Origin: an uncultured Bacteroidota bacterium
GTDB taxonomy: Bacteria > Bacteroidota > Bacteroidia > Chitinophagales > Saprospiraceae
Assembly: GCA_903933805.1 (NCBI GenBank)
Contig: CAIZLM010000263.1
Coordinates: forward strand, 1-43,627
Length of the DNA stretch: 43,627 nt
Direction: 5' to 3'
Shown here: one piece after another, positions 8,874-30,480 of the stretch
Numbering within the stretch: the first letter of the stretch is position 1
Layout: each line of letters begins with the position of its first letter
Notes under the pieces: model-generated
What the model saw: the letters and a program-made list of their open reading frames with translations, nothing else
The model's database searches: none
Told to the model about the DNA's origin: nothing
Position numbers and translations under genes: made by a program

Positions 8874-9563
8874 TCAGATCAGGGGTGCCAGTATTGTTGT
8901 CAGTTCCGAAACCGATGACAACAGTCCATCATTGTCGAGAGCAGCGAGTTGAGCTGCTGGGTGCGTGCCGTTCGTAACGGCCAGCGACAGCAGACAACCT
9001 GCGTTTCTGCCTTCGGCGAGGTCCACTGGCGTGTCACCAACTTTAACCACTTCTTTTGGGTCGGTGATGCCGAAATGCGCCATGGCGGCTTGTATCATAA
9101 AAGGAGCTGGCCGACCGGCGGGCACCTCGTCGCTGGTTACGACGAAATCAATGATTTCGCCTGTTTCCCATCCCAAGCGGTTGAGAATAATATCGGTTAC
9201 CAACCGGTAGAAACCCGTGTTCAGCGCTATTTTGATGTTGTTTTTTCGACACCATTCAAACACTTCGAGGGCGCCATCTGTTGGTACTACCGGTTGTGTT
9301 AGGTAATATTCTTCCAGTATTTCGCGAAACAAGTCGTAAGACACCATCGCTTTTGCATCCACCATTTCTGAGGTAGCATCCTCCAATTGCTCTTCCCACA
9401 ACATTTTAAACACGGTTAGCTTTGAAACACCCATCAATGCGTTGAGGCGGTCATCGGTAGCGTGGATACCGGTTTGTATGCAGGCTTCCCGGAAGCAGTA
9501 CAGCACTTCGTCGCGGTCGCGAACAGTTGTGCCAGCAATATCGAATACAATAAGTTTAACCAT
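8874..9563 (-). CDS. Phosphonatase-like HAD hydrolase (TIGR03351/PhnX-like)
   Basis: A 229-residue cytoplasmic HAD-superfamily hydrolase. Motif I is FDIAGTT, with nucleophile D8 and Ala at the position where most HAD phosphatases have a second Asp; this DxAGTT form is a hallmark of phosphonoacetaldehyde hydrolase. The cap has MGVSK, placing K48 where PhnX has its Schiff-base lysine (MGxxK). Motif II is ALNTGF (T116), motif III GRPAPFM (R151) and motif IV VGDTPVD (D177, D181). Phosphonatases split phosphonoacetaldehyde into acetaldehyde and phosphate. The genes across the divergent promoter are a transporter, a phosphonate-type FAD oxidoreductase and a PhnZ-like oxygenase, which supports a C-P cleavage role. 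The closest named family is the phosphonatase-like TIGR03351; the exact substrate is inferred. Confidence 0.85.
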   Translation of the reverse strand: MVKLIVFDIAGTTVRDRDEVLYCFREACIQTGIHATDDRLNALMGVSKLTVFKMLWEEQLEDATSEMVDAKAMVSYDLFREILEEYYLTQPVVPTDGALEVFEWCRKNNIKIALNTGFYRLVTDIILNRLGWETGEIIDFVVTSDEVPAGRPAPFMIQAAMAHFGITDPKEVVKVGDTPVDLAEGRNAGCLLSLAVTNGTHPAAQLAALDNDGLLSSVSELTTILAPLI

Positions 9564-9600
9564 TTAAGCGGAGCGTCGAGATAAGTGAAGCAATAAACCG

Positions 9601-9608
9601 CAAAAGTA
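9601..9608 (-). promoter_or_regulatory. -7 box TACTTTTG for the phosphonatase-like gene
   Basis: The minus strand reads TACTTTTG, a perfect TAnnTTTG match 38 bp before the ATG at 9563. Confidence 0.5.
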
Positions 9609-9622
9609 GCAGGTCTCATATT

Positions 9623-9655
9623 GCCCCAGCATGAAGTTTTAGGCCCCAATATGAA
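9623..9655. promoter_or_regulatory. Direct repeat, candidate operator in the divergent promoter
   Basis: GCCCCAGCATGAA (9623-9635) and GCCCCAATATGAA (9643-9655) match at 11 of 13 positions with a 20-bp period, about two helical turns. An inverted pair CATATTG/CAATATG (9617-9623, 9647-9653) overlaps them. They lie between the two divergent -7 boxes. Confidence 0.4.
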
Positions 9656-9674
9656 TGTTTTGTAACCAATTTGT

Positions 9675-9682
9675 TACGTTTG
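9675..9682 (+). promoter_or_regulatory. -7 box TACGTTTG for the transporter gene
   Basis: A TAnnTTTG match 45 bp before the ATG at 9728. A TTTG at 9659 is closer than the usual -33 spacing. Confidence 0.4.
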
Positions 9683-9727
9683 ATGGAAGTGATGCAGCGG
9701 TGCCCTTACTATCCCTACACTTGCACC

Positions 9728-11032
9728 ATGGAAACCATAGGATCCTCCTCGGTACGTCGTTGGCTCATAAAATCTCCTTCCGTTGTACAAGTGTTGTACA
9801 CCTGTTTGGTAGCATTCACGGCATACTGTTGTATGTACGCCATGCGGAAGCCGTTTACGGCAGCCAGCTATGCGGGTTTGGAGTGGCATGGTATTCAATT
9901 CAAGATAGTGTTGGTGGTGAGCCAGGTGTTGGGCTATGCTATTTCCAAATTTATCGGCATACGCATCATCAGTTCCATGAAACAGGCACACCGCAGCGTG
10001 TGGATGATCGGGTTGTTGTTGTTGGCATTGCTTTCCTTGTTGGGTTTTGCCCTCACGCCATTTCCGTACAATGCGCTGTGGCTGTTTGTGAATGGGTTGC
10101 CTCTGGGCATGATTTGGGGAGTTATTTTTGGATACATTGAGGGGCGAAGAACGACGGAAGTGCTGGCGGCTGCGTTGAGTGTAAATTTCATCCTTTCCAG
10201 CGGTTTTGTAAAATCTGTGGGTCAATGGGTATTGACAGAGAAAGGCGTTCCCGAGTTTTGGATGCCATTTGTGGTGGGAATGATTTTTCTCCCATTGTTG
10301 CTGTTGTCTATTGGGTTGTTGGAACAAATACCTCCACCCAGTGATGCTGACAAAGCCCAACGCCATGTTCGCACGCCGATGACGGCGGTTGACCGGCGTG
10401 CGCTGTGGCGTCGTTATGCGCCTGGATTTGCACTGTTGATGGGTGTTTACTTGTTGCTCACCATCATTCGGGATGTGCGCGACAATTTTGCGGTGGAGAT
10501 ATGGACAGAGCTTGGTTTTGGGGGGCGCACGGCGATATTAACCACGGCTGAAATACCAGTGGCGGTACTCACACTCTTGGGGTTGGCGGCGTTGATAGCG
10601 GTTAAAAACAACTTCAAAGCCTTCTGGTTGAACCATGGGCTCACGTTGGGCGGTGGGGCAACCCTTGCAGGATCCACCTTTTTGTTTCAACAACATTGGA
10701 TTGACCCTTTCACGTGGATGGTGTTGAGTGGATTTGCCCTGTTTGTGCCCTATATTATTTTCAATGGAATATTATTCGACCGACTTTTAGCCGCATTTCG
10801 GGAGCCCGGCAATGTGGGTTTTCTGATGTATGTGGCCGATGCCATTGGGTATTTAGGCAGTGTATTGGTTTTGTTGTGGCGTAATTTTGGTTTCTCAAAA
10901 ATGAGTTGGATTGAATTTTACTGCGACCTGTGTTATGTTGGCTCCTCATTAATTATCGCCATGATGGTTTTTTCTTGGGTATTTTTCCAATCAAAGTCAC
11001 GTGTTGATCGCACCGGCTTGGCGACCATCTAA
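9728..11032 (+). CDS. DUF5690-like MFS-type transporter, resembles organophosphate antiporters
   Basis: An inner-membrane protein of about 434 residues with roughly 12 hydrophobic segments and a polar middle loop (PPSDADKAQRHVRTPM) between two six-helix halves, as in the major facilitator superfamily. Helix 1 has AFTAYCCMYAMRKPF, similar to the Y..YyxvRknf signature of GlpT/UhpT-type organophosphate:phosphate antiporters. I recall this family as DUF5690 in Bacteroidota, but could not search. The ATG at 9728 (METIGSSS) is chosen because it leaves a short N-terminus before helix 1; an upstream ATG at 9671 lies ahead of the -7 box. Placed between a phosphonatase-like gene and two phosphonate-catabolic genes, it is a candidate importer of a phosphonate or organophosphate. 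The substrate is inference. Confidence 0.7.
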   Translation: METIGSSSVRRWLIKSPSVVQVLYTCLVAFTAYCCMYAMRKPFTAASYAGLEWHGIQFKIVLVVSQVLGYAISKFIGIRIISSMKQAHRSVWMIGLLLLALLSLLGFALTPFPYNALWLFVNGLPLGMIWGVIFGYIEGRRTTEVLAAALSVNFILSSGFVKSVGQWVLTEKGVPEFWMPFVVGMIFLPLLLLSIGLLEQIPPPSDADKAQRHVRTPMTAVDRRALWRRYAPGFALLMGVYLLLTIIRDVRDNFAVEIWTELGFGGRTAILTTAEIPVAVLTLLGLAALIAVKNNFKAFWLNHGLTLGGGATLAGSTFLFQQHWIDPFTWMVLSGFALFVPYIIFNGILFDRLLAAFREPGNVGFLMYVADAIGYLGSVLVLLWRNFGFSKMSWIEFYCDLCYVGSSLIIAMMVFSWVFFQSKSRVDRTGLATI

Positions 11033-11079
11033 GTCGTTACACAGGTGTTTTCGATCGCTCTAATCACTATAATCTCAGC

Positions 11080-11157
11080 GTAATTGTTTCGCGTGGTCGC
11101 GTCTGAGCAAAAAAATGGACCATTTTGGGCCAGACAGCGTGCCACCTAACCAGTTAC
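11080..11157 (+). mobile_element. Palindromic MITE, copy C (short form) with 8-bp target duplication
   Basis: It starts GTAATTG, ends CCTAACCAGTTAC and is 78 bp long. It is flanked on both sides by ATCTCAGC (11072-11079 and 11158-11165), a perfect 8-bp target-site duplication. It lies between the transporter gene and the FAD oxidoreductase gene, 27 bp before the latter's ATG. Confidence 0.92.
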
Positions 11158-11184
11158 ATCTCAGCATAACAACAATTATTAACC

Positions 11185-12303
11185 ATGAAAAAGAAATATG
11201 ACGTAGCGGTAGTGGGTGCCGGCATTGTTGGACTAGCCGTGGCGCTGACTGCAGCCAAACAAGGTAAAAAAGTGGTGGTTTTTGATCGAAGTCCCCGCTC
11301 CATGGGTGCCAGTATCCGAAATTTTGGTCTAATTTGGCCTATTGGCCAATCGGCAGGCGCCAATCTAGACAGGGCCATGCGCAGCCGTGGTGTCTGGTTG
11401 GATCTAGCAGAAAAAGCAGGGATAGATTTGGCTGAAAACGGCTCACTGACCCTCGCATACCACGACGACGAACAGGCAGTATTGGAGGAATTCGCGGACA
11501 AGTCCCTTGAAAATGGCTACGATTGCGCGCTGTTGACGCCATCAGAGATTGCAGAAAAGTCTCCGGCTACCCGCACGGAAGGTTTGAAATCGGGTTTGTG
11601 GAGCCGTACCGAGTGCACGGTATCCTCCCGTCAGGCATTGCCCCAACTGGCTGCTTATCTGGAAGAGGCAATGGGCGTTGATTTTTACTGGAGCCGCGCG
11701 ATTACCCATGTAGAGCCTGGTCATGTGTCAGATTTTTATGAAGTGTGGGGCGCTGAACGGGTCTATATCTGTGGTGGTCAGGATTTCGAAACGCTGTATC
11801 CAAAAACATTTGCTGAAAGCGGCATTACCCGCTGTAAATTACAGATGATGCGTACCGCCAGCCAGCCGGAAGCCTGGAAACTTGGTCCGTCTTTGTGCGC
11901 CGGATTAACATTGCGCCACTATGATAATTTTGCCGATTGCCCCTCTCTGGCGGCCGTCGATGCCCGTTATGACCTCGAAAATCCGTTTTTTAAACAATGG
12001 GGCATTCACGTTTTGTTGTCCCAAAACAGCTTTGGAGAGTTGATCATTGGCGATAGTCATGAGTATGGTTGGGATGTTCAACCCTTTGATCAAGCAGACA
12101 TCAACCGGGAAATTATGGAATACCTGCGCACGTTTGCACATTTTCCGGATGTTGACATCGCAGAGATGTGGCATGGTATTTATCCCAAAATACCCGGCAA
12201 AACATCGTTGGTGCAGGAAGTTGAGCCCAATATATGGGTCGTGAATGGGCTCAGCGGGGCCGGCATGACCCTGAGTTTTGGCCTGGCAGGGGAGATCGTA
12301 TAG
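11185..12303 (+). CDS. FAD-dependent oxidoreductase, phosphonate-locus type (TIGR03364)
   Basis: A 372-residue DAO-fold flavoenzyme. The N-terminal FAD-binding Rossmann motif is VVGAGIVGLA (GxGxxG at residues 11-16), followed by the ribose-binding acidic strand VVVFDR. The C-terminal flavin contact is VNGLSGAGMTLSFGLAGEI. The stretch GASIRNFGLIWPIGQ is characteristic of TIGR03364, a family named for its place in phosphonate-degradation gene sets. Such enzymes oxidatively remove the amino group of aminoethylphosphonate or its N-alkyl forms, giving phosphonoacetaldehyde, the substrate of phosphonatase. Here the phosphonatase-like gene is nearby and the PhnZ-like gene follows 64 bp downstream, so they probably act in one pathway. 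The C-terminus is short after the flavin motif but ends in a normal stop. Confidence 0.85.
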   Translation: MKKKYDVAVVGAGIVGLAVALTAAKQGKKVVVFDRSPRSMGASIRNFGLIWPIGQSAGANLDRAMRSRGVWLDLAEKAGIDLAENGSLTLAYHDDEQAVLEEFADKSLENGYDCALLTPSEIAEKSPATRTEGLKSGLWSRTECTVSSRQALPQLAAYLEEAMGVDFYWSRAITHVEPGHVSDFYEVWGAERVYICGGQDFETLYPKTFAESGITRCKLQMMRTASQPEAWKLGPSLCAGLTLRHYDNFADCPSLAAVDARYDLENPFFKQWGIHVLLSQNSFGELIIGDSHEYGWDVQPFDQADINREIMEYLRTFAHFPDVDIAEMWHGIYPKIPGKTSLVQEVEPNIWVVNGLSGAGMTLSFGLAGEIV

Positions 12304-12367
12304 CCACAACGGTTTCACTAAAGTAAACCAATACCAAGCACACAAACCATCCCAACATCAGTCGGTT

Positions 12368-12907
12368 ATGATCAACATCATTGATTTATACAAACAACAT
12401 GGCCATGCTGAGTACATCGGCGAGCCCGTGTCTCAACTGGAACATGCTTACCAAGCAGGCCACCTCGCCCTGTCTGCCGGGGCAACGCCAGACGTCGTAA
12501 TAGCAGCCTTTTTGCACGATATCGGTCACCTGTGTGCTGACGCGGGGGTAGCCCAGATGGACGGACTGGGCACGATGCACCACGAACAGGTGGGTGCCGA
12601 TTTCTTGCGCGCCCACGGCTTGCCCGAACGTGTTGCCAAATTGACGGAAAGCCATGTTCAGGCCAAACGTTACCTAACCTTTACCAACCCTGATTATTAC
12701 AACGGACTTTCTGACGCCAGCCGTGGCACCTTGCGTTGGCAAGGCGGCCCGATGAATGAAGCCGAAGCCCGTGACTTTGAACAAGACCCTGACTTTGAGG
12801 TGATTTTACAGTTGAGACAATGGGATGAACAGGCGAAAATAGAAGGTCAACCAGTATCAGATTTGACGATTTTTGAATCCATCCTCCATGAAATGAACAG
12901 TCTTTAG
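12368..12907 (+). CDS. PhnZ-like HD-domain phosphonate oxygenase (TIGR03276)
   Basis: A 179-residue HD-domain protein. PhnZ-type enzymes use a mixed-valent di-iron centre and O2 to split the C-P bond of 1-hydroxy-2-aminoethylphosphonate to glycine and phosphate. The ATG at 12368 (MINIIDLYKQ) is taken; an upstream in-frame ATG overlaps the FAD gene. Metal-ligand candidates are H32, H50-D51, H54, H72, H96 and D153, with K100. The spacings H50-H72 (22), H96-K100 (4) and H96-D153 (57) equal those I remember for PhnZ (H58-H80, H104-K108, H104-D161). E25 matches PhnZ Glu27, but the Tyr24 position is Ser here. No 2-oxoglutarate hydroxylase partner (PhnY/TmpA type) is in the window, so either it is elsewhere or the substrate differs. 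Confidence 0.87.
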   Translation: MINIIDLYKQHGHAEYIGEPVSQLEHAYQAGHLALSAGATPDVVIAAFLHDIGHLCADAGVAQMDGLGTMHHEQVGADFLRAHGLPERVAKLTESHVQAKRYLTFTNPDYYNGLSDASRGTLRWQGGPMNEAEARDFEQDPDFEVILQLRQWDEQAKIEGQPVSDLTIFESILHEMNSL

Positions 12908-12996
12908 TGGGCTTGTAACGGCGGGTATTTACATAACTTTACACAGGCTTGTTCCAAACTTAACACCCATAATAATGGTGCGATAAAACACCTATC

Positions 12997-13004
12997 TACT
13001 TTTG
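12997..13004 (+). promoter_or_regulatory. -7 box TACTTTTG upstream of susC
   Basis: A perfect TAnnTTTG match about 125 bp before the susC-like ATG. It suggests that the SusCD pair has its own promoter and a leader of about 120 nt, separate from the phosphonate genes. The rest of 12908-13128 shows nothing recognisable. Confidence 0.5.
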
Positions 13005-13128
13005 CATCGTGTTATTTACAAGTGCTCTCTGATATGTTTTCAGGGGATTACTATTGCTTTGAAAAGTTTCTAACTATTGAAGTGACGCGTACATAATTTC
13101 TTTCTTCTAAACTAAATTTTTTCTGATT

Positions 13129-16100
13129 ATGAAGGTTCAACAACCCACCTTCAAGGGTGCAATCTGTGCCCTTGCAGTACTTTTCATGTCCTGTGCCACC
13201 TTGCTCGCGCAACGAGTGAGTGGCATTGTTTTGGACGCTGAAACCAACGAGGCCCTTCCAGGTGCATCGGTAATGGTAAAAAACACGACCCGTGGCACCA
13301 GTTCCGATGGCAACGGAAAATTTGTGATGGAAGCCAAGGTTGGAGAGGTTTTGGTCGTTTCTTATGTTGGCTACGACCAACAAGAAATTTCCATTGGTGC
13401 CTCTATTACCTTTGAAATTCGTTTGATTGGTGGTAAATTGCTCGACGAAGCAGTTGTTACGGGTCTCGGTTTCAAGAAGGACAAAGCGCGTCTTGGGTAT
13501 GCTACTCAAGAAGTAAAAGGCGCTGATTTATTGAAAGCGCGCGAGCCCAATCCAATCAACTCTTTGGTGGGCAAGGTAGCCGGTCTAACGGTCGGTGCAT
13601 CCACTGAATTGTTGGGCGCACCAAGCCTCAGCCTCCGCGGATCTACCCCGATCTTTGTCGTGGATGGGGTGCCAATCAACTCTGACACTTGGAACATCAG
13701 TGCTGATGACATCGAAACCTATACGGTGTTGAAAGGCCCTGCGGCTGCTGCACTCTATGGTTTTAGGTCGCAAGATGGTGTGATCATGATCACCACCAAA
13801 AAAGGAGTTTCCGGCCGTACGACGGTGGAGTTTAACACCAGCCAAATGATGGAAAAAGGCTTCAACGCGCTGCCAACCGTACAGGACGAATATGGACCTG
13901 GCGACCATGGACGCTACTCGTTCGTGGATGGCCGCGGGGGTGGCCTCAACGATGGCGACTATGATGTTTGGGGCCCACGCTTCGAAGGTCAGGCATTGCC
14001 ACAGTATGACAGCCCGATCGATGCACAAACAGGAGAAAGAACAGCTACTCCTTGGACCGCTCGTGGTACTGATAACCTGGAACGCTTCTTGCGCCCCGGA
14101 TTTCAAAGCAATAATAACATTGCAGTTACAACTGGTACTGACAAATCTCAGTTTCGTTATTCTACTTCCTACAACTACACAGGAGGTATGGTACCGAACA
14201 CCCAATTGAACGTGGCCAATTTCAACGTTTCAGGGGGACTTGATTTCTCTGATAAAATTCGCCTTGAGGCCAATATCAACTACAACCGTCAGTTTACGGA
14301 CAATATTCCCGATGTACAATATGGTCCAAATTCCATGATCTACAACATCATCATCTGGGGTGCGGCAGACTGGAACGTGGACGATATGCAAAACTACTGG
14401 CAACCAGGTAAAGAAGGTACCCAGCAGATTTATGCTGAATACCAACGCTACAACAATCCTTGGTTCCTGGCGAAAGAATGGTTGCGTGGTCACCAAAAAA
14501 CGGATGTATTTGGTCAAACAGCCATTTCTTATAAGTTTGCGCCAGGCTTTTCAGCCAAATTGCGCACCGCCGTTACTACCTATGACCTTACACGTTCTGA
14601 AAAGTTCCCGTATTCTGCTACGGTGTACGGACGTGAAGAAGCGCGTGGTGATTACCGTGAAGACAAGCGCTCACTCTTCGAAAACAACACCGACCTGACC
14701 ATTAATATGGATAAGAACATCGGTGATAATTTCAGCGTGAACGCTTTGGTTGGGGGCAATATTCGCTCTTTCCAATACAATTCAAGCTATGTGACCACCG
14801 ATTACCTGAATGTACCGGGTTTATACACTTTTAGCAATTCATCAAATCCTATTAAGGCATTTGATTTTGATTCTAAAATGTTGGTTAACAGTGGATTTTA
14901 TTCCGCTGATTTCGGCTTCAAAAATATTATCTTCGTGAACACAACAGGTCGGGTTGACAAACTTTCAACACTGCCTAAAGGAAACAATACGTTTTTCTAC
15001 CCATCTGTTAGCACTTCTTTGGTGGTGTCTGAAATGGCTGATTTGGGCCCTGTTTCTTTTTTGAAATTGCGTGCAGCTTACGCCAATGTTAAAGCCGGTT
15101 TGACCGCTAAAACCATTGGTGCTACACCATCTGCTGCCTATCCAATCGGTTACGGATCGTACTATTCTTCTTCTTATGACGGCCCGACGTACGAAAATTC
15201 ATCTGTTTACAATTCCCCACTGGTGTACAACAACCAACCGGGTTCTTACTTTTCCAACACCATTTCCAACGCCAATCTTCAGCCGCTTAATCGTACGAAC
15301 TACGAAGCAGGTGTAGAAGCCAAAATCATGCGCAACCGTATTGGCGTTGACCTTACTTGGTTCCGTTACGTGGATGGTCCACAAATATTTGCAGTACCGC
15401 TTTCTGAAGCAACCGGCTACACCAGCCAATTGGTAAATGCGGTAAAAACACAGCGTCAAGGTTGGGAAGCTACCATCAATGGCTCACCTGTTCGCCCGGA
15501 AAAACCCGGTGATTTCTCTTGGGATGTGTTGGCCAACTGGAGCACGTTCAAAGAAACCTTCTTGGAACTGCCAACAGGGCTTGACCGTATCTATGGCTTC
15601 TTTGAAAAAGGAGACCGTACAGACAAATACTACGACCGTGCTTTCGTCCGCACCAGCGATGGACAGATCATCAATGACGGATCTGGCCGCCCAATCATCA
15701 ATCCTACGGCACAATTCCTTGGAAACCAAAATCCTGACTGGGTGTGGGGCTTGTACAACAAGTTCTCTTACAAAGGTTTGAGTCTTGGTATTCAGTTTGA
15801 TGGCCGCGTTGGCGGTGTTATCACAGACTATTTGCGTCGTCAAACATTCCGCGGCGGTCGCAACATCGAGACAACCGAAGGCGCAATGGGGGCAGCTCGT
15901 CTCCTGGACTGGGAAAACCAAAAAGCAGGCAAATACAACAACCCACAAGAAAATGGCAATTGGGTTGGTGAAGGTGTTGTCGTTAGCAACGGTGTTGCCA
16001 TTCAGTACGATCAATTTGGTAAAATCACCAATTACGACCAATTGCAATTTACCCAGAATGGTACCAAAACGTTCCTGCAAGATTATATCAGCCGCTACTA

Positions 16101-16374
16101 CAGCCCAGCTGAAGGAAGTCTGATGAGCCGTACGTTCTCAAAACTGCGTGAAGTGACCATCACCTACCAAATGCCGGAAAAGTGGTTTGCAAAGGGCAAT
16201 ATTATCCGCTCTGCTTCTGTGTCACTGGTAGGCCGCAACCTGCTGTACTTCGCTGAATTTAAGGATATTGACCTCGATACCTACGTTGGTCACAACTACT
16301 CAGGAGCAGGTTACTCTGATCTACAGTCGCCGACCGCCAAGCGTTACGGTATTAATTTGAATGTAACTTTTTAA
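13129..16374 (+). CDS. SusC/RagA-type TonB-linked outer-membrane transporter
   Basis: A 1081-residue TonB-dependent transporter. A signal peptide (residues 1-28, ending TLLAQ) is followed by a CarboxypepD_reg-like beta-sandwich (RVSGIVLDAETNEALPGASV, about 29-112). The plug contains INSLVGKVAGLTV, LSLRGSTPIFVVDGVPI and VLKGPAAAALYGFRSQDGVIMITTKKG. The remainder is a 22-strand barrel ending in the C-terminal aromatic strand GINLNVTF. The SusD-like lipoprotein follows 96 bp downstream, forming the usual SusCD pedal-bin complex that imports oligomers across the outer membrane. No glycoside hydrolase or protease is beside it; the neighbours upstream are phosphonate-catabolic, which makes a phosphonate-bearing ligand possible. 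The ligand cannot be read from the sequence. Confidence 0.95.
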   Translation: MKVQQPTFKGAICALAVLFMSCATLLAQRVSGIVLDAETNEALPGASVMVKNTTRGTSSDGNGKFVMEAKVGEVLVVSYVGYDQQEISIGASITFEIRLIGGKLLDEAVVTGLGFKKDKARLGYATQEVKGADLLKAREPNPINSLVGKVAGLTVGASTELLGAPSLSLRGSTPIFVVDGVPINSDTWNISADDIETYTVLKGPAAAALYGFRSQDGVIMITTKKGVSGRTTVEFNTSQMMEKGFNALPTVQDEYGPGDHGRYSFVDGRGGGLNDGDYDVWGPRFEGQALPQYDSPIDAQTGERTATPWTARGTDNLERFLRPGFQSNNNIAVTTGTDKSQFRYSTSYNYTGGMVPNTQLNVANFNVSGGLDFSDKIRLEANINYNRQFTDNIPDVQYGPNSMIYNIIIWGAADWNVDDMQNYWQPGKEGTQQIYAEYQRYNNPWFLAKEWLRGHQKTDVFGQTAISYKFAPGFSAKLRTAVTTYDLTRSEKFPYSATVYGREEARGDYREDKRSLFENNTDLTINMDKNIGDNFSVNALVGGNIRSFQYNSSYVTTDYLNVPGLYTFSNSSNPIKAFDFDSKMLVNSGFYSADFGFKNIIFVNTTGRVDKLSTLPKGNNTFFYPSVSTSLVVSEMADLGPVSFLKLRAAYANVKAGLTAKTIGATPSAAYPIGYGSYYSSSYDGPTYENSSVYNSPLVYNNQPGSYFSNTISNANLQPLNRTNYEAGVEAKIMRNRIGVDLTWFRYVDGPQIFAVPLSEATGYTSQLVNAVKTQRQGWEATINGSPVRPEKPGDFSWDVLANWSTFKETFLELPTGLDRIYGFFEKGDRTDKYYDRAFVRTSDGQIINDGSGRPIINPTAQFLGNQNPDWVWGLYNKFSYKGLSLGIQFDGRVGGVITDYLRRQTFRGGRNIETTEGAMGAARLLDWENQKAGKYNNPQENGNWVGEGVVVSNGVAIQYDQFGKITNYDQLQFTQNGTKTFLQDYISRYYSPAEGSLMSRTFSKLREVTITYQMPEKWFAKGNIIRSASVSLVGRNLLYFAEFKDIDLDTYVGHNYSGAGYSDLQSPTAKRYGINLNVTF

Positions 16375-16470
16375 TTCACGGTTTATTTCAAGGAGTTTTC
16401 TGAATGCAACACCAATGGGTGTGTTATTCTTCCAAAGGAATTCTAAACCATTAAAAAACAGATTATTACA

Positions 16471-17976
16471 ATGAAAAATATAAAATTTCTTTTCATGCTG
16501 CTGGCCTTTGTTTTTGCTGCCAATGGCTGTCAAAAATTTGAAGACTTGGAGTCTGATCCCAATCGCTCTACGTCTGCATCACCTTCGCTTGTTTTGCGGG
16601 GTATCCTGAAAGATGTTTACGATTCTCCTTGGGACGACGAGAGCCGCTGGTGCCAGTATTGGTGTATCAATTACAACTACTACGGCACCAACGAATATTG
16701 GACTGGATCAGCCGATTTCCGCTATACAACGTTGAAAAATGTGTTGAAAATGGAGGAAGAAGCTGCGCGTATTAACCTTCCAACGGTCAATGCTTACAGC
16801 TCAGTGGGCAAATTTTTACGCGCCTATTTTTACTACCAAATGACGATGCGCGTGGGTGACGTTCCCATGTCTGAGGCATTGAAAGGTGCTGACAACGTGT
16901 TTCCAAAATACGATACTCAAAAAGAAGTTTTTGCGCAAATACTGACTTGGCTCGACGAGGCTAATTCCGATTTGGCTGCTCGTATCGCGGATGCCGACAA
17001 CACGCTCCAAGGTGATATTTACTACGGTGGTGATTTGCGCCTTTGGCAAAAAGCTGTGAATAGCTACAAATTGCGTGTTTTGATCCAGATGAGCAATAAA
17101 TCTGCTGATGCAACTTTGAATATTGGCGGTCAGTTTTCAAAAATCCTCAGCGATCCAGCCAAGTATCCAGTGTTTGAAGGCAATGGGGATGATTTGGCGC
17201 TGCAATACAATGCAGTTTCTGACAAGTATCCAACAAACCCGGATAATTTCGGTTTTGACGCTTTGCGCAACAACATGTCTGCCACGCACATCGGTTTGCT
17301 GACGTCTCTGAAGGATCCACGGGTGTTCGTGGTTGCTGAACCCGGTACGTATTACACCGATACCCTTGGTTTGTCACGCACTGATTTTAATGCGTATGTA
17401 GGTGCGCCATTTGATGAGGGTCTCGATGCCATGTCTTCAAAAGCACAAGGCGGTGTGTATGCCCTGATTGGCCGCAATCGCTACTACAGTGGCTATACTG
17501 CTGAACCAGGCGTGCAAATTGGCTATGCTGAAATGTGTTTCAATATCGCAGAGGGTATCAACCGCGGTTGGTACAACGCAGGAAATGCGTCTGACTGGTA
17601 CCAAAAAGGTATTACTGCTTCGATGAATTTCTTCGGAATCAGCGATGCTGCCGGTATTGCGGCTTATTTGGCCCAGCCACTGGTAGGGTACAAAGGCAAC
17701 AATGCCGATGGCTTAGCGCAAATTTTGGAGCAGCGTTATCTTGCGCTTTTCCAACAAGCAGGCTTGGAGTCTTACTTCCACTGGCGTCGTACAGGTGCTC
17801 CAACGTTCGCGTTTGGTGGGCCAGGCACAGGAAACTCCGGCTTGATTCCACGGCGTTTTCAGTACCCAACGAGCGAGCGTGACAACAATTCAGCCAATTA
17901 TGAAGCCGCGCTTCAGCGGCAGTTTGGCAATGCCAACGACAATGTGAACGATGAACTTTGGATCACAAAAAACTAA
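16471..17976 (+). CDS. SusD/RagB-family lipoprotein (SusD-like_2 type)
   Basis: A 501-residue surface lipoprotein with lipobox AANGC (Cys20). The helical TPR-like body carries WCQYWCINYNYYGTNEYW and YKLRVLIQMSNKSAD. Near the C-terminus is ILEQRYLALFQQAGLESYFHWRRTGAPTF, typical of the SusD-like_2 subgroup; together these support a ligand-binding lid for the SusC transporter upstream. A short hairpin (ACACC-AATG-GGTGT, about 16410-16424) sits in the susC-susD gap and could modulate stoichiometry. The stop codon TAA abuts MITE copy D directly. The ligand is unknown. Confidence 0.93.
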   Translation: MKNIKFLFMLLAFVFAANGCQKFEDLESDPNRSTSASPSLVLRGILKDVYDSPWDDESRWCQYWCINYNYYGTNEYWTGSADFRYTTLKNVLKMEEEAARINLPTVNAYSSVGKFLRAYFYYQMTMRVGDVPMSEALKGADNVFPKYDTQKEVFAQILTWLDEANSDLAARIADADNTLQGDIYYGGDLRLWQKAVNSYKLRVLIQMSNKSADATLNIGGQFSKILSDPAKYPVFEGNGDDLALQYNAVSDKYPTNPDNFGFDALRNNMSATHIGLLTSLKDPRVFVVAEPGTYYTDTLGLSRTDFNAYVGAPFDEGLDAMSSKAQGGVYALIGRNRYYSGYTAEPGVQIGYAEMCFNIAEGINRGWYNAGNASDWYQKGITASMNFFGISDAAGIAAYLAQPLVGYKGNNADGLAQILEQRYLALFQQAGLESYFHWRRTGAPTFAFGGPGTGNSGLIPRRFQYPTSERDNNSANYEAALQRQFGNANDNVNDELWITKN

Positions 17977-18115: not shown

Positions 18116-18176
18116 TCCACACAACCAGTTACTAATTTCGAATATATCGCTATTCTTGCAGGAAATAGTTTATAAA

Positions 18177-20213
18177 ATGTCGAAAACTACCTTTTTTATG
18201 CTCTTAGCCTGTATTGCTATTAATCAGGCAGTGCATGCCCAAGACAGCAATATTGAAAAAGACACAACCGAGGCCCATGTGCTGGGTGAATTGGTTGTCA
18301 CCACCAACAGAACCAGAACAGATCGGTTTGCTGCGCCCGCAGCAATTGATGTCGTGGATATTCAATATTGGAGCAGGTTTCAGCCGCGTACCACTCCCGA
18401 AATTCTGCTTCAATTACCCGGTGTGTTTGTACAAAAAACCAACCACGGTGGAGGTTCTCCTTTTATCAGAGGCCTGACGGGCAATCAAACGTTGCTGCTG
18501 CTCGATGGTATCCGCCTCAACAACGCCACCTACCGTTATGGTCCCAACCAATACCTCAATACGGTGGACGCGTTTTCACTCGAAAGTATCGAAGTACTCC
18601 GCGGCGGCGGTTCTGTCCAATACGGCTCTGATGCCCTCGGCGGCACGGTTCAACTGTTCACAAAAAATGTTGATTTTAGCGAGAAAAACACCTGGAAAGG
18701 CGATTTATTGGGCAGGCTATGGTCGCAAGGAATGGAGCAGAGCGCCCACGGATCAATCGGGTTTTCAGGAAAAAATGCCGCTGTACAGGGCGGCGTTTCT
18801 GTTCGACATTTTGGCGATTTGGTCGGAGGGGATACGACTGGTGTGCAATCGCCAACGGGCTACGATGAATATGCAGTGGACATAAAATCTAAGATCAGGC
18901 TTGGAAAAAACAATACTCTTACGCTGGCGCACAATGAAGTGACACAACGCCATGTGCCCGTATTCCACAAGGTCTTGTTGGAAAATTATAAAACCAATGA
19001 ATTTGAACCCCAAAAACGGCTGCTTTCGTATGTCCGCATGGATGGTAAAACAAGCTCTAGCGGTATCGACAACTGGTATGTTATCGCTTCCCGCCAGCAA
19101 ACGGAAGAAGGTAGAATCAGTCAGAAAAATGACGCTACGACCCGCAGGGAGGAACGAGATGACGTGGTGACGTATGGTGTCACCAGCAATATTATGAGTG
19201 TTATCACCAAAAGAATAACTTCGAATTCCGGACTCGAATTGTACCAAGACCGTGTTGGCAGTACCCGTCAGGATTTTAATACCAGTGATGGGACCGTTGT
19301 TCAAAAGCGCGGCTTATATCCAGATGGTGCGCGGATGTTGAGCATGGCGGTTTTTTCTCTGCAAGAATTTTCATTGGATCGATGGAAAATAACCACAGGC
19401 GCACGGTTTAATGCGTATCAAATTGATGTAAATGATGCTGTATTGGGCGCTGTACGCCTCACTCCTGTTGCTTGGGTGTGGAACGCAGGAGTACAACGAA
19501 TGCTGAATAAACATACAAATGTATTTTTTTCGTACAACTCGGGTTTCAGGGCGCCCAATATTGATGATCTTGGCACCCTCGGTATTGTCGATTTTCGATA
19601 CGAAGTCCCCAATTATGATTTAAAGCCAGAACGGTCACACAATTTTCAGGTGGGGTTAAAGGCTAAAAATCATTGGCTCCGTACGGAAACGTACGTGTAC
19701 CACAATGTGTTGAAGCAATTGATTACAAGGGTAAAAACGACCGATACTATTCAGGGATATCCGGTATATGAAAAAGATAATATTGAGCATGCATATATAC
19801 AAGGTATAGAAAATCAATTTGCTATTAGTCTTCCCCGCCATTTCTTTATCGAGGGCCATCTGGCTTATTGTTTTGGGCAAAATGTAACCAAACAGGAACC
19901 CGTTCGTCGAATTCCGCCATTGAATGCTCGGGTTGCGCTCCGGTTCCAGCCCTGTCAACGGTGGTTTTCAGCTGTTGAATGGCTGACAGCTGGCGCCCAA
20001 AAGCGACTATCACAAGGTGATTTAGCTGACAACAGAATCCCGTATGGTGGTACACCAGGGTGGTCTGTTTTTAATATTTATGGCGGCTATTCACGGGGTA
20101 ACCTTCGGGTTAATCTGAATGTTGTCAATGTGCTGAATAAAGATTATCGATTGCATGGATCGGGGGTAAATGGCGCGGGAAGGAGCGTGGTGCTTTCGAT
20201 TGGGTATAGGTGA
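18177..20213 (+). CDS. TonB-dependent outer-membrane receptor
   Basis: A receptor of about 678 residues. The ATG at 18177 (MSKTTFFMLL) gives a signal peptide ending AVHAQ; an in-frame ATG 21 bp upstream is less likely. After a short tail comes the plug domain: LGELVVTTNRTRTDRF, ILLQLPGVFVQKTNHGGGSP, FIRGLTGNQTLLLLDG and VLRGGGSVQYGSDALGG. The rest is a 22-strand barrel closing with GRSVVLSIGYR. It lacks the SusC-type N-terminal domain, so it resembles the BtuB/heme/siderophore class of receptors. The SPFIRG and YGPNQY stretches recall hemoglobin/transferrin-type receptors; no substrate is assigned. It might serve the BtuG-like lipoprotein, but that gene lies 12 kb away and this receptor has no riboswitch. 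The stop codon touches the left GC-rich repeat array. Confidence 0.88.
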   Translation: MSKTTFFMLLACIAINQAVHAQDSNIEKDTTEAHVLGELVVTTNRTRTDRFAAPAAIDVVDIQYWSRFQPRTTPEILLQLPGVFVQKTNHGGGSPFIRGLTGNQTLLLLDGIRLNNATYRYGPNQYLNTVDAFSLESIEVLRGGGSVQYGSDALGGTVQLFTKNVDFSEKNTWKGDLLGRLWSQGMEQSAHGSIGFSGKNAAVQGGVSVRHFGDLVGGDTTGVQSPTGYDEYAVDIKSKIRLGKNNTLTLAHNEVTQRHVPVFHKVLLENYKTNEFEPQKRLLSYVRMDGKTSSSGIDNWYVIASRQQTEEGRISQKNDATTRREERDDVVTYGVTSNIMSVITKRITSNSGLELYQDRVGSTRQDFNTSDGTVVQKRGLYPDGARMLSMAVFSLQEFSLDRWKITTGARFNAYQIDVNDAVLGAVRLTPVAWVWNAGVQRMLNKHTNVFFSYNSGFRAPNIDDLGTLGIVDFRYEVPNYDLKPERSHNFQVGLKAKNHWLRTETYVYHNVLKQLITRVKTTDTIQGYPVYEKDNIEHAYIQGIENQFAISLPRHFFIEGHLAYCFGQNVTKQEPVRRIPPLNARVALRFQPCQRWFSAVEWLTAGAQKRLSQGDLADNRIPYGGTPGWSVFNIYGGYSRGNLRVNLNVVNVLNKDYRLHGSGVNGAGRSVVLSIGYR

Positions 20214-20452: not shown

Positions 20453-20830
20453 TTACAACCCGTTTACGATTCTTTTAAGACCATTTTTGATAAGCCCTTC
20501 ATTATAATTAATCAGAAGTCCGAGTTTGATATTGGTTAACTTAAGATAAGTGAGTACTTGTTTTTGGTGTACATGCGCGATGGTGGCAATTGATTTTACC
20601 TCGATGATTACCTTATTTTCTATGATAAAATCAGCGCGAAAACCCATGTCTAACTTTAGGCCATCCCAATAGACAGGAATAGGTTTCTGACGTTCAATCA
20701 GAAAACCAGTTTTGCGCAATTCATAGTCCATAATTTCCTCATAAACAGACTCAAAAAGTCCTGGTCCCAGTTTTTTGTGGATGTTAAAACAACAATCTAC
20801 AACCTGTTGGGCGATTTCATTTTCATTCAT
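20453..20830 (-). CDS. GxxExxY protein, PD-(D/E)XK nuclease-like
   Basis: A 125-residue protein of the GxxExxY family (TIGR04256/PDDEXK_3). The naming motif is GPGLFESVY (G24..E27..Y30). The candidate nuclease core is FRADFII...VIIEVKSI, giving D67 and E77-x-K79, a PD-(D/E)XK signature. The ATG at 20830 (MNENEIAQQ) is chosen because family members begin just before the first helix; a longer frame to 20920 runs through AT-rich sequence. The function of the family is not established. The gene is on the opposite strand to its neighbours and is flanked on both sides by inverted copies of a GC-rich array, as if gene and arrays form one mobile cassette. Confidence 0.9.
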   Translation of the reverse strand: MNENEIAQQVVDCCFNIHKKLGPGLFESVYEEIMDYELRKTGFLIERQKPIPVYWDGLKLDMGFRADFIIENKVIIEVKSIATIAHVHQKQVLTYLKLTNIKLGLLINYNEGLIKNGLKRIVNGL

Positions 20831-23800
20831 GCTCGATATTTTTACATAAAAGGTATCACATTTTTCCACATTTTCAAAATTTTTTTTGTGAAAAAGCCCT
20901 TCCCTTCCCTTTTTTCTCACACACTACCCCCCTCCCTCCGCGCCTCCTCCCTCCGCGCCCCCTCCCTTCGCGTCTCTGCGCCTTCGCGAGAAACTACCCT
21001 TAGCGCCTCCTCCCTTCGCGCCCCCTCCCTTCGCGTCTCTGCGCCTTCGCGAGAAACTACCCTTAGCGCCTCCTTCCTTCGCGCCTCTGCGCCTTCGCGA
21101 GAACCCCAGCGCCTCTGCGCCTTCGCGATTTGCCTACTGTTCAACCTTTGCGTGCTTTCCGCCCAACGCACGATGCAAGTACCTGGCAGCAACGAAACGG
21201 CGCGCGTGAACCCAGCCGGCATCTCCATTTTGCCCTCTGGTCGCTACATTACCCCTGCGGGTCAAGCAGTTCCCGTTACCAACGGCGCGTTTGGTCTCGC
21301 CTGTTCACCCGATGAAAAAACTGCGCTGATATTACACCACAACGGTGCCATCAGCGTAGTAGATTTATCTGGCCCCACTCCCTCCGTAATGCGTTTGCCT
21401 GCTTACGGTCAGAAAATTGACCGATCAGCTTTCCTGGGAATCGCCTTTGCGCCGGATGGCAAAAAAGCCTATCTCAGTGGTGGCGACGCTGGTGACATTA
21501 CCATTTTTGACGTGCAAAAACGCGCAATCATCGGCCATTTTACCCTAGACACCCTCTTCAATGGCGTGAAATACAAAGACTCCTTTACTTCCGACCTGAT
21601 TTTCAACGCTTCAAAAAATGAACTACTCGTGTTGGACAGGGGCAACAACCGCCTGGTGAGAATCAATGTATCCACGGGATTGCCAACGGCTTCCATCCCG
21701 GTAGGCAGAATTCCTTTTGGCATCGCACTTTCGCCCGATGGTACCCATGCCTTAGTTGCCAACGTCGGACTATACCAGTATCCCCTCGTCCCGGGCGTGA
21801 CCTACACCAACAAAGACACCATGATGCTCCAATTCCCGCCCTACGGATTGCCTTCAAAAGAGGCTGAAGAAGGCGTAACCTTGCCCGATGGGCGGTTTAT
21901 TGCGGGACTTGGCAACGCCTTGGCCGAAGAAGCCATGAGTGTCTGGGTCGTAAATTTGGAACAAAATAAAGTGGTCAGCAAACTTAAAACAGGACTCCAA
22001 ATTGGCGAAAAAATTGAAGAAGTAGAAATTGTCGGCGGCGCCAGTCCCAATTCCATCGCCGTTGGCAGCCGTTTTGCTTACGTCTCCAACGCAACCAACG
22101 ACCGCATCACCGTCATTGACTGGAAAAAAGGAAAAATAAAATACGAGATCCCGCTCAAAATAGATCCGCAGATAGATGCATTTCGCGGAATGATTCCTTT
22201 TGGACTCAGCCTCTCCAAAGATGAAAAAACACTCTATGTCGCGCTGTTGGGCCTCAATGCCGTTGCCGTTGTGGATGTCAAAAAAAGAGAGACAAAGGGC
22301 TTTATTCCGACAGGGTGGGGTACCACGCGCGTTGCTACCACCAACCACCAACAATTGCTCATTCTATCTGCCAGAGGATGGGGTGCCGGCCAAAATGGTG
22401 GCAAAGACTTCGTTAGCCCGCCCATGGGTACCTATGTTGGCGATATTCAAGTGGGCTGCTTTCAACAATTGCCAATCCCCGACGATGCCGCACTCGCCAT
22501 GATGACAGATCGGGTGAAACAAAACACATTCCTCACAACGGTCTTGAAAGACGACGGCGCCAATCCCTGCCCAACAATGGCGGGGCTGCGCAAAAGTCCC
22601 ATTCGACACATCGTGTATATCACCAAAGAGAACCGCACCTACGACGAATTATTTGGACAAATAAAGGCGGGGAATGGAGATCCAAGCCTGGCCCGCTTTG
22701 GGGAAAATGTTGACATCATTACACGCCGTGGGTCGAACAAAGATGTTTCCGATCAACCCGATGATGCTATGCTTGATCAGTCGCCAAAAGATACCCTTCA
22801 CGGCGTTACAGTGGCCCCCAACCACCTCAAAATTGCCCGAGAATGGTCGATCAGTGACAATTTTTATTGCGATTCAGATGCTTCCATTCACGGACACCAC
22901 TGGATGATGGGGACGTTACCAAATGAGTATGTAGAAGCCAATTCAGTCGCGAATGGACGTTTTGACCCAGGATCTCCGGCTCCCGGACGTGTGTTTCCAC
23001 GCTCCACGGGTGGCATAGACCCAGAAGACTACAACGAAATTGGTGGATTGTGGGAAAATCTTGCCAGAAATGGTGTTGATTTCTACAACTTTGGCGAATG
23101 CAACGAGTTCAACGGAAACTATGAGGAAAAATTTGATACCGTCTTTGGCGCGGCACACCCGGTAGCCTGGGCAATGCCAACGGTACTCCGCGACCGATCT
23201 TGTCACGATTACGCTGGTTTTAATTCCAATATTCCGGATCAATTCCGCGTAGAACAGTTCGAGCGCAACTTCCGAAAAATGTGGCTCAATGGCAAAGATA
23301 CCATGCCCGCGCTCGTGGCTATTCAACTGCCAAACGACCATACTTCCAGCCCAAGACCAGAAGATGGCTATCCATATATCCATTCCTTTGTAGCCGATAA
23401 TGATCTTGCACTCGGAAGAATGTTGGAATTCCTCAGCCAAACCCCCTATTGGAAATCAATGCTGGTCGTCGTCACTGAAGATGATCCGCAGGGTGGTGTT
23501 GACCATGTGGATGCCCACAGATCCGTGCTCATGCTGGCGGGGCCCTACGTGAAACGCAATGGATACGTTTCGCATCGACATGGTAATTTCGGAGCAATTT
23601 TGAAGTTGATTTACAACGTACTGGATGTACCTTATGTCAATCAATATGACGCTACTGCTACCTTGCTGGATGATTTCTTTACGCCAAATCCTGATTTTTC
23701 AGCCTACAATGCCGTGCCGAACGACGAAAGGGTGTTCCAACCCAAAAAAGCCATGCGGCTTTACGGACGGGATTTTAACTGGAGGTCTATAAAAATGGGT

Positions 23801-23869
23801 GTAAAAATGGATGATGCCAAAGAGCAGCGGGACGAGCACTACAAACAACAGGGTAAGTCTTCCAATTGA
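20777..23869 (+). CDS. YncE beta-propeller/phosphoesterase fusion, start disrupted by repeat array
   Basis: A secreted two-domain protein with about 910 residues of recognisable sequence. A signal-peptide core (AICLLFNLCVLSAQ) precedes a YVTN/YncE-like propeller (IAFAPDGKKAYLSGGDAG, IALSPDGTHALVANVG, FGLSLSKDEKTLYVALLG). From about 22590 comes a PF04185-type phosphoesterase: VYITKENRTYDELFG, DASIHGHHWMMG, QLPNDHTSS, TEDDPQGGVDHVDAHRS. It probably releases phosphate or an alcohol from phosphate esters in the periplasm or outside. The coordinates give the longest frame. No ATG lies between 20777 and 21171, and the span 20926-21128 is repeat array that supplies part of the signal peptide. An in-frame GTG at 20888 is another option. 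The true start is unknown. A paralogue is at 30621-33053. Confidence 0.8.
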   Translation: MDVKTTIYNLLGDFIFIHARYFYIKGITFFHIFKIFFVKKPFPSLFSHTLPPSLRASSLRAPSLRVSAPSRETTLSASSLRAPSLRVSAPSRETTLSASFLRASAPSREPQRLCAFAICLLFNLCVLSAQRTMQVPGSNETARVNPAGISILPSGRYITPAGQAVPVTNGAFGLACSPDEKTALILHHNGAISVVDLSGPTPSVMRLPAYGQKIDRSAFLGIAFAPDGKKAYLSGGDAGDITIFDVQKRAIIGHFTLDTLFNGVKYKDSFTSDLIFNASKNELLVLDRGNNRLVRINVSTGLPTASIPVGRIPFGIALSPDGTHALVANVGLYQYPLVPGVTYTNKDTMMLQFPPYGLPSKEAEEGVTLPDGRFIAGLGNALAEEAMSVWVVNLEQNKVVSKLKTGLQIGEKIEEVEIVGGASPNSIAVGSRFAYVSNATNDRITVIDWKKGKIKYEIPLKIDPQIDAFRGMIPFGLSLSKDEKTLYVALLGLNAVAVVDVKKRETKGFIPTGWGTTRVATTNHQQLLILSARGWGAGQNGGKDFVSPPMGTYVGDIQVGCFQQLPIPDDAALAMMTDRVKQNTFLTTVLKDDGANPCPTMAGLRKSPIRHIVYITKENRTYDELFGQIKAGNGDPSLARFGENVDIITRRGSNKDVSDQPDDAMLDQSPKDTLHGVTVAPNHLKIAREWSISDNFYCDSDASIHGHHWMMGTLPNEYVEANSVANGRFDPGSPAPGRVFPRSTGGIDPEDYNEIGGLWENLARNGVDFYNFGECNEFNGNYEEKFDTVFGAAHPVAWAMPTVLRDRSCHDYAGFNSNIPDQFRVEQFERNFRKMWLNGKDTMPALVAIQLPNDHTSSPRPEDGYPYIHSFVADNDLALGRMLEFLSQTPYWKSMLVVVTEDDPQGGVDHVDAHRSVLMLAGPYVKRNGYVSHRHGNFGAILKLIYNVLDVPYVNQYDATATLLDDFFTPNPDFSAYNAVPNDERVFQPKKAMRLYGRDFNWRSIKMGVKMDDAKEQRDEHYKQQGKSSN
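20926..21128 (-). repeat. GC-rich tandem array, right, inverted relative to the left array
   Basis: It includes a 63-bp unit present twice in nearly identical form (from about 20941 and from about 21004), plus shorter CTCTGCGCCTTCGCGAGAA units. Because 63 is divisible by three, the array stays open in the phosphoesterase frame as a 21-residue repeat (SLRVSAPSRETT core). Confidence 0.9.
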
Positions 23870-26439: not shown

Positions 26440-26489
26440 ATTACTTTCCGGCGCACCGGTATTGATTTGAACATGGGAGTAAGAAGGCG

Positions 26490-27563: not shown

Positions 27564-27787
27564 ACGCAGCGAGGTGTGAATGAGTGAATGGGCAAATGGG
27601 TGCTTGGTTGTATGGTTCAGACACCACGATTTCGTTTGTTCGGCGAAAAGTAGCGCAAAATCATGACTCACCAACCACTCCAAGCCGCAGTTTTTGTTAA
27701 AAAAGGAGAAATGGTGACATACGGGCAATTTCTGGAAGGGATATTGGCTTACAAACACCCTTCGCCAGACAAATTTACAAGAATTAT

Positions 27788-27821
27788 TCCGCACGCCGGG
27801 TATTTCTCCTCAGCGTGCGGA
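27788..27821 (-). terminator. Hairpin downstream of the YfhO gene
   Basis: A 9-bp perfect stem TCCGCACGC/GCGTGCGGA lies just beyond the YfhO stop. No strong T-run follows. The rest of 27564-27839 shows only a weak TAAATTTG box (27770-27777, minus) that might serve the PorP gene. Confidence 0.45.
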
Positions 27822-27839
27822 CAATATTCCCTAGCGGGC

Positions 27840-30344: not shown

Positions 30345-30480
30345 AACGTAGGACAATAAGGCTTAGTGCCTTGGGCGAAAATCTGTGTTTGGTACTATCC
30401 TCAGGGATAAGCCGCCCATTCTGTTCGCTGTAGGCTGTTCGCCGCGAAGGTAGCGAGAATTCGTAGTTAATGACAACACC

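Follow-up and report, generated by a model that had tools for sequence, protein, structure and literature searches.

A probable 2-aminoethylphosphonate utilisation locus with its own SusCD pair in an uncultured Saprospiraceae bacterium and other Bacteroidota

Most of the phosphonate in nature is tied up in lipids and glycans, and SusCD pairs are known for importing cargo too big for diffusion. Here we describe a gene cluster in which a SusCD pair follows genes for the catabolism of 2-aminoethylphosphonate (AEP) in an uncultured Saprospiraceae bacterium. The cluster lies on contig CAIZLM010000263.1 (C263), a stretch of 43,627 nucleotides that was analysed whole and is called the window below; the host assembly, GCA_903933805.1, comprises 4.2 Mb in 336 contigs.

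The closest described systems are the Pus loci of Flavobacterium, in which PusCD pairs induced by low phosphate lie together with phosphoesterases, transporters of organophosphates in the inner membrane and, in one phrase, "phosphonate-degrading enzymes" (Lidbury et al., PMC8115612). The association of SusCD with phosphonate degradation is thus already known from that genus, and the locus in the window likewise has SusCD co-located with organic-phosphorus enzymes, one of the features of Pus. There are differences, however. PusD1/2 are assigned to pf07980/pf14322 in that paper, the text of which, figure aside, contains neither "phn" nor "pf12771", whereas the SusD found here belongs to PF12771, and a single SusCD clade tracks differing AEP routes over several orders. 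Among the top-ranked open-licence papers, we found no other report of a SusCD clade tied to phosphonates.

The catabolic enzymes also have described counterparts. PbfD oxidises N-methyl-AEP and AEP, and PbfD2 acts on AEP (Zangelmi et al. 2023, PMC10590968). As in the window, PbfD1 is annotated as TIGR03364, and PbfD genes have a phosphonatase in their cluster, in many cases with PhnW missing; carriers from the FCB group are named; in contrast, the hydrolase found here comes from the TIGR03351 branch, and the accessible text of that paper has no joint mention of phosphonate, SusC and SusD and uses neither "HD-domain" nor "PhnX-like". AepP, the AEP permease of Pseudomonas putida, is a GlpT-related protein of the major facilitator superfamily (MFS) encoded next to AEP genes, also in Kriegella aquimaris (Bacteroidetes) (Murphy et al. 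2021, PMC8316502). GlpT/PgtP-like proteins occupy the transporter slot in some of the loci described below, but the transporter of the window, DUF5690, is a separate Pfam family, distant from organophosphate:phosphate antiporter (OPA) proteins. The overall plan (SusCD, exported hydrolases and cytoplasmic catabolism) is that of a polysaccharide utilisation locus, with phosphoesterases and C-P enzymes in the place of glycosidases.

We consider that the window probably holds a conserved phosphonate utilisation locus specialised on AEP and its relatives, in which import through SusCD, ester cleavage and C-P cleavage would be combined. Its genes are the following:

8874-9563, minus strand: PhnX-like HAD hydrolase, related to TIGR03351 but below its cut-off
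9671-11032, plus strand: DUF5690 MFS-type protein (PF18943, 516 bits); likely start ATG 9728
11185-12303, plus strand: PbfD-type oxidoreductase dependent on flavin adenine dinucleotide (FAD) (TIGR03364, 459 bits)
ATG 12368 to 12907, plus strand: PhnZ-like HD-domain di-iron oxygenase, related to TIGR03276 (213.6 bits)
13129-16374, plus strand: SusC TonB-dependent outer-membrane transporter (TIGR04056, 453 bits)
16471-17976, plus strand: SusD-like_2 surface lipoprotein lid (PF12771, 242 bits)
18156-20213, plus strand: second TonB-dependent receptor, of a family recurring in 19 of 80 related loci
20777-23869, plus strand: beta-propeller plus PF04185 phosphoesterase, proposed to be an exported phospho(no)esterase, of a family found in 31 of 80 related loci

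An earlier interpretation made from the letters of the window (the sequence-only reading) had claimed the first six of these in a row, as a hydrolase, a transporter, an FAD oxidoreductase, an HD protein, SusC and SusD. Family profile matches recovered all six, each at the place given, but the gene set continues past 17976 with the second TonB receptor and then the PF04185 phosphoesterase, which had been overlooked and whose families both recur in related loci.

The gene neighbourhoods were surveyed outward from SusD. A scan of GTDB with an alignment of the protein gave at least 516 loci, of which the 80 best were examined; they include Chitinophagales, Cytophagales, Flavobacteriales and Prolixibacteraceae, 38 of them have full flanks, and a few come from genomes that are also in the family sample used below. 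Two genomes of that sample have a SusC identical to that of a Saprospiraceae MAG (G148, L184) and of a Chitinophagales MAG (G018, L173), which fits a host related to Saprospiraceae. Neighbour families were scored with profiles built for this analysis, at a limit of 100 bits. PhnX-like, DUF5690, PbfD and HD are counted as the four core families, and the TonB receptor and the PF04185 protein bring the set to six. At least one core family was present in 60 of the 80 loci, at least two in 47 and all four in 30; the corresponding counts for full-flank loci are 31, 26 and 18. Grouping SusD at 80% identity gave 57 groups, 45 of which have a core family; among the 28 groups that include a full-flank locus, 26 do. 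An enzyme (PhnX-like, PbfD, HD, PhnW or PbfA) was encoded in 58 loci (29 full-flank), while six loci had the TonB receptor or the PF04185 protein alone, with no core family. Cultured genera with phosphonate enzymes at these loci are Spirosoma, Runella, Arcicella, Flavihumibacter, Niastella, Paraflavitalea and one Flavobacterium. The adjacency across Bacteroidota that the sequence-only reading had offered as its check is therefore conserved, and it persists when the enzymes change. SusCD next to unrelated genes in close relatives, which that reading had named as its refutation, is not the rule, the exceptions being five Dyadobacter loci, locus L147 and genomes G125, G067 and G001. Two further families were seen at these loci. 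A helix-turn-helix-cupin regulator (e.g., L203:5977-6558) occurs in 11 of the 80, often directly upstream of SusC or by the PhnX-like gene, and is a candidate substrate sensor; a PHP-domain protein (one representative scanned; L199:14617-15447 and six others) lies near DUF5690 and PhnX-like in seven.

The enzymes that accompany this SusCD clade are not always the same. Three AEP routes adjoin it: PbfD/PhnX-like/HD, as in the window; PhnW/PhnX/PbfA; and PhnW/PhnY/PhnA (by SusD, in one locus). By BLAST and clustering, a PhnX-type hydrolase is present in nine of the 80 loci, PhnW in 9 and PbfA in 5. All five PhnX-type loci that were tested (L141, L144, L157, L187, L196) passed the TIGR01422 cut-off. 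L144, the sole locus profile-tested for PhnW and PbfA, has both of them over cut-off. In L187, a single SusCD is flanked by PhnX/PhnW on one side and by PbfD/DUF5690/PhnX-like/HD on the other. The third route is found in L291, a genome reached through its DUF5690, where SusD (44%) is in a row with a PF01663-type phosphoesterase, HD, PhnA, PhnY, PhnW, a sarcosine-oxidase-like FAD protein and DUF5690; PhnA, PhnY and PhnW are over cut-off, and SusC falls outside the stretch. A plasmid of Hymenobacter sp. NBH84 carries a GlpT/PgtP-like MFS gene, HD, SusC (51%), SusD (46%), PhnX-like and TIGR03364, together with two enzymes annotated as sulfatase-like and alkaline phosphatase family, and PhoX and a Na/Pi symporter are nearby. 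Because one SusCD clade keeps company with differing AEP routes, it is assigned to AEP-type cargo; this is the main reason for the assignment, and service to AEP-type compounds is the most likely role that the gene neighbourhoods suggest. The Hymenobacter locus (L260; NZ_CP043649.1, 21177-46685) is whole on its 125 kb plasmid, and transfer as a unit is possible. A saccharopine-dehydrogenase-like protein (L144:11571-12758 and three others) is found by PhnX/PhnW and may be an extra enzyme for AEP derivatives. SusD relatives at 33% identity on two plasmids fall outside the clade and lie by other genes.

The same link was found starting from PbfD in a sample of 150 genomes of the family, 27 of which have a TIGR03364 match. 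The SusC of the window is over the TIGR04056 cut-off (453 vs 368 bits), and the adjoining SusD has a lipoprotein Cys20 that is invariant in seven alignment rows. We compared the surroundings of PbfD with the window proteins in the 26 other PbfD-positive genomes and found SusC (12 loci) or SusD (G093) nearby in 13, against a chance expectation of 1.41 (P about 1e-10), in which the SusC counts per genome are in many cases lower bounds (at least about 19). For the 13 genomes with complete SusC counts, six were seen against 0.59 expected (P 1e-5), and under a loose null that deliberately overcounts, taking every first-look candidate as SusC, 6.1 were expected (P = 0.003). Chance adjacency of SusCD and phosphonate genes is rejected on the strength of these 13 of 26 and of the 31 of 38 full-flank loci. 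SusD was detected at E <= 1e-60 in 10 of the 150 genomes, eight of which have PbfD; with the window's own genome left out, PbfD occurs in 7 of 9 SusD-positive genomes and in 19 of 140 others (P 7e-5).

At least two SusCD lineages take part in the linkage. In a tree of the 11 near-PbfD SusC proteins that were long enough, two fall in the clade of the window and eight in a second cluster, while L036, an ordinary background type among the 13 linked cases, groups with the background; the 30 background rows are the best TIGR04056 scorers and hence biased, and the counts, not the deep split, are relied on as proof. The nine SusC clade members score at least 757 bits, the next match being at 439. Six of the nine (G000, G018, G048, G093, G129, G148) carry phosphonate genes no farther than about 10 kb from SusCD, with the HD gene alone in G129 and a shortened-looking PbfD frame in G148. 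Below this gap, among the matches listed, G014, G016, G038, G055, G062, G107 and G123 have their SusC near PbfD and most others do not. In G148, the PbfD frame (L073:16187-17173) is matched only partly while the remaining locus looks intact, an apparent decay of the oxidase.

The residues expected of the C-P enzymes are conserved. The hydrolase scores 184 bits with TIGR03351 (cut-off 218.9) and 119 bits with TIGR01422 (cut-off 220); since it is under both, we class it as PhnX-like and not as PhnX, with TIGR03351 as its nearest family. It has a DIAGTT motif, and D8, which we take to be the nucleophile of PhnX-type enzymes, aligns with position 12 of 2iof and 2ioh. In an alignment of 25 rows D8, R151, D177 and D181 are invariant. 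K48, presumably the Schiff-base lysine, for which the sequence-only reading had already proposed it, is at least 90% conserved in the same rows and aligns with position 53 (Lys in 2iof, Arg in 2ioh), in agreement with that proposal. PbfD is well over its cut-off (459 vs 285 bits, model positions 1-364 of 365), and the PhnX-like gene is two genes away from it. The genome of the window has no PhnW match at E <= 1e-30, and PhnW was over cut-off in none of 29 family genomes, this one included; PbfD therefore fits as the AEP oxidase. Two genomes, G366 and G409, have TIGR03364 without a DUF5690 or phosphonatase match, perhaps PbfD relatives with another use.

The HD protein is one bit short of the TIGR03276 cut-off (213.6 vs 214.6 bits), which the Hymenobacter copy passes at 218.3. 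As expected of a PhnZ/TmpB-type oxygenase, it aligns with PhnZ (4n71) without gaps over 156 residues, at an offset of 6 if numbering starts at base 12362, two codons ahead of the ATG. In that numbering, Y18, E21, H28, H52, D53, H56, H74, H98, K102 and D155 are invariant in 23 rows, and we assume that these ten positions are the di-iron and substrate ligands of PhnZ. Unlike in the PhnZ/TmpB systems, the usual 2-oxoglutarate hydroxylase partner was not recognised among the window genes; no search for it was made in the rest of the genome.

Beside the SusCD clade, phosphoesterases of three families are frequent, occurring together in 45 of the 80 loci and in 23 of the 38 with full flanks. The propeller-PF04185 type is present in 31, a PF01663-like type in 18 and a PF00149-like type in 6 (one representative was scanned for each of the latter two); PF04185 and PF01663 both belong, we assume, to the alkaline phosphatase superfamily. 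In 10 of the 18 PF01663-like and 3 of the 6 PF00149-like cases, the start of the gene is at most 200 bases away from where SusD ends. Judged by eye, most of 31 N-termini look signal-like and lack a lipobox, of the Sec type for PF04185 and PF01663 and twin-arginine for PF00149. This suggests the import of ester-linked phosphonates, because an exported ester-splitting step is so frequent beside SusCD, and together with the second TonB receptor these enzymes would be the best clue to such a cargo. In the window, the start and signal of the PF04185 gene are uncertain because a tandem repeat intrudes at its 5' end. The model of the protein has a predicted local distance difference test (pLDDT) score of 77.8, and its best 50 Foldseek matches are propeller-type proteins or large complexes; the esterase half is assigned by Pfam and PDB sequence match (2d1g acid phosphatase, E 1e-6). 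Around and beyond this gene are the following features:

20453-20920, minus strand: PDDEXK_3 (PF13366) gene, in the interval that separates the TonB receptor from the PF04185 gene
20931-21103: 15/63-base tandem repeat, running into the 5' end of the PF04185 open reading frame
23980-30356: PorP/SprF, OmpA-like and an 838-amino-acid family-less protein, between both PF04185 genes
30621-33053, plus strand: second beta-propeller/PF04185 protein, possibly the distal part of the locus

Two PF04185 copies were also seen in several related loci. The content of 23980-30356 resembles a type IX secretion set.

DUF5690 was found in 30 of the 150 family genomes, among them all 27 with PbfD (P 5e-26 with the genome of the window left out), and in 29 of 296 genomes sampled from the phylum; of the 23 phylum genomes that have PbfD, 21 have DUF5690 as well, an overlap tallied by hand. 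Its AlphaFold2 model (pLDDT 92.6) has an MFS fold, and PDB ranks 1-5 are all G6PT/SLC37A4, with template modelling scores of 0.63-0.66 by query and 18-19% identity. A PDB profile search gave three matches at E <= 1, all SLC37A4, with E-values of 0.04 and up. R40 and R248 are invariant in 34 rows and align, by a weak underlying profile match, with R31 and R248, the invariant arginines of five OPA-like proteins, presumably the phosphate-binding arginines of GlpT. In L141, L149, L154, L176 and the Hymenobacter plasmid, DUF5690 is replaced by a GlpT/PgtP-like MFS protein, which is below curated cut-offs in the two cases tested (L149, L260). DUF5690 is likely to be the inner-membrane permease, with phosphonate as its proposed substrate; we found no mention of it by name in the open-licence literature searched. 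Eight phylum genomes have DUF5690 without PbfD, and two of these (L291, L294) have AEP loci of other types; two more examples come from the family sample, G114, with a phosphonatase match under cut-off, and G121 (80% complete), with none. The family was also over cut-off in a control genome from outside Bacteroidota, that of Caulobacter vibrioides.

The following route can be proposed. SusCD, perhaps aided by the second TonB receptor, would import AEP-bearing molecules across the outer membrane, the cargo being AEP in ester linkage, for instance in the head groups of phosphonolipids or in pieces of phosphonoglycans. The exported phosphoesterase (here the propeller-PF04185 protein) would cleave the P-O-C ester and release free AEP, and DUF5690, as an MFS protein resembling organophosphate:phosphate antiporters, would take it into the cytoplasm. 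PbfD would then convert AEP or N-methyl-AEP to phosphonoacetaldehyde, which the PhnX-like hydrolase would split into acetaldehyde and phosphate, while the PhnZ-like oxygenase may act on a 1-hydroxylated analogue. Gene content, clustering and the conserved catalytic residues are observed directly; from them we infer every transport step, an ester-bound cargo, the compartment in which the esterase works and all the catalytic activities. The idea of a phosphonate utilisation locus had been advanced in the sequence-only reading, and its adjacency holds across Bacteroidota and across AEP routes, while polymer or lipid cargo, transport by SusCD and induction by phosphonate or on phosphate starvation stay at the level of proposal. 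More tentatively, the scheme may extend to the whole phylum as ester-phosphonate import by one SusCD clade, with exchangeable periplasmic phosphonoesterases, DUF5690 as a new family of AEP permeases and whichever AEP route the host possesses.

A number of observations weigh against a specialisation on AEP. The PhnX-like and HD proteins are both under their curated cut-offs. None of the six families was found in 14 of the 80 loci, of which 8 lie on contigs no longer than about 10 kb and six, with full flanks, are the five Dyadobacter loci and L147. In the former (L198, L205, L212, L213, L215) the clade SusCD has DNA polymerase I in its neighbourhood together with a protein of the PF06439 type (3-keto-disaccharide hydrolase), which would suit sugars; PbfD is elsewhere in the genome in all five of these Dyadobacter and absent from the L147 genome, and each of the six genomes has a below-cut-off phosphonatase-type match. 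Loci L193 and L207 carry DUF5690 only, clade members G067 and G125 have PbfD apart from SusCD, and in G001 the TonB receptor and PF04185 accompany an outer-clade SusCD, with no match for PbfD, DUF5690 or a phosphonatase in the genome. Fifteen of the 38 full-flank loci lack all three phosphoesterase families. As for the transporter, other MFS proteins follow G6PT closely, from rank 6 at similar E-values, its comparison with the OPA profile is weak (hhalign probability 3%, E 0.014), and six phylum genomes with DUF5690 and without PbfD have no recognised phosphonate gene in the stretch and no TIGR01422 match at E <= 1e-20. Because of these six, DUF5690 is not strictly phosphonate-linked; its neighbours there (L290, L292, L293, L295, L296, L297) include TatD, PfkB, ABC and MOSC, pointing to a second use of the family.

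The retention of SusCD, TonB receptor and PF04185 in G001 would be expected if the system were a general, Pus-like scavenger of organophosphates, importing ordinary phosphodiesters such as phospholipid head groups and teichoic-type polymers, with the phosphonate enzymes covering the phosphonate share. None of the phosphoesterase families is specific to phosphonates, the Hymenobacter locus is accompanied by PhoX and a Na/Pi symporter, and Pus loci with phosphodiesterases have been described (PMC8115612). This explanation is nevertheless rather unlikely, as a phosphonate enzyme is encoded in 58 of the 80 loci and the clade accompanies differing AEP routes. The loci devoid of phosphoesterase would agree with a SusCD that takes up free AEP or other small aminophosphonates and not conjugates, the phosphoesterases being separate scavengers, and the downstream enzymes do work on small phosphonates. 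The position of the PF01663-like and PF00149-like genes, half or more of which start close to the SusD end, and the usual size of SusCD cargo make this quite improbable. Finally, the pair might serve peptides or glycans, its place next to the phosphonate genes being accidental. Such genes are common, with 7 to 20 SusC per genome in counts that are partly lower bounds, the 33% SusD relatives on plasmids adjoin other genes, and sugar-type genes do occur, as the PF06439-type protein of the five Dyadobacter loci and a GH1 beta-glucosidase in L144. However, no glycosidase was found among the scanned representatives of the nine recurrent neighbour clusters, on which ground a role for SusCD in glycan uptake was rejected, and the excess over chance in both samples renders an accident very improbable indeed. 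Utilisation of AEP-type phosphonates therefore remains the best explanation of the locus.

The analysis suggests a role for DUF5690 and probably widens the cargo range of SusCD, and the module of SusCD, phosphoesterase and DUF5690 consists of named, testable genes in cultured genera. If the proposed function is true, the locus would supply phosphorus as a nutrient by way of transporters that are elsewhere associated chiefly with sugars. It would be to phosphonolipids or phosphonoglycans what a polysaccharide utilisation locus is to polysaccharides.

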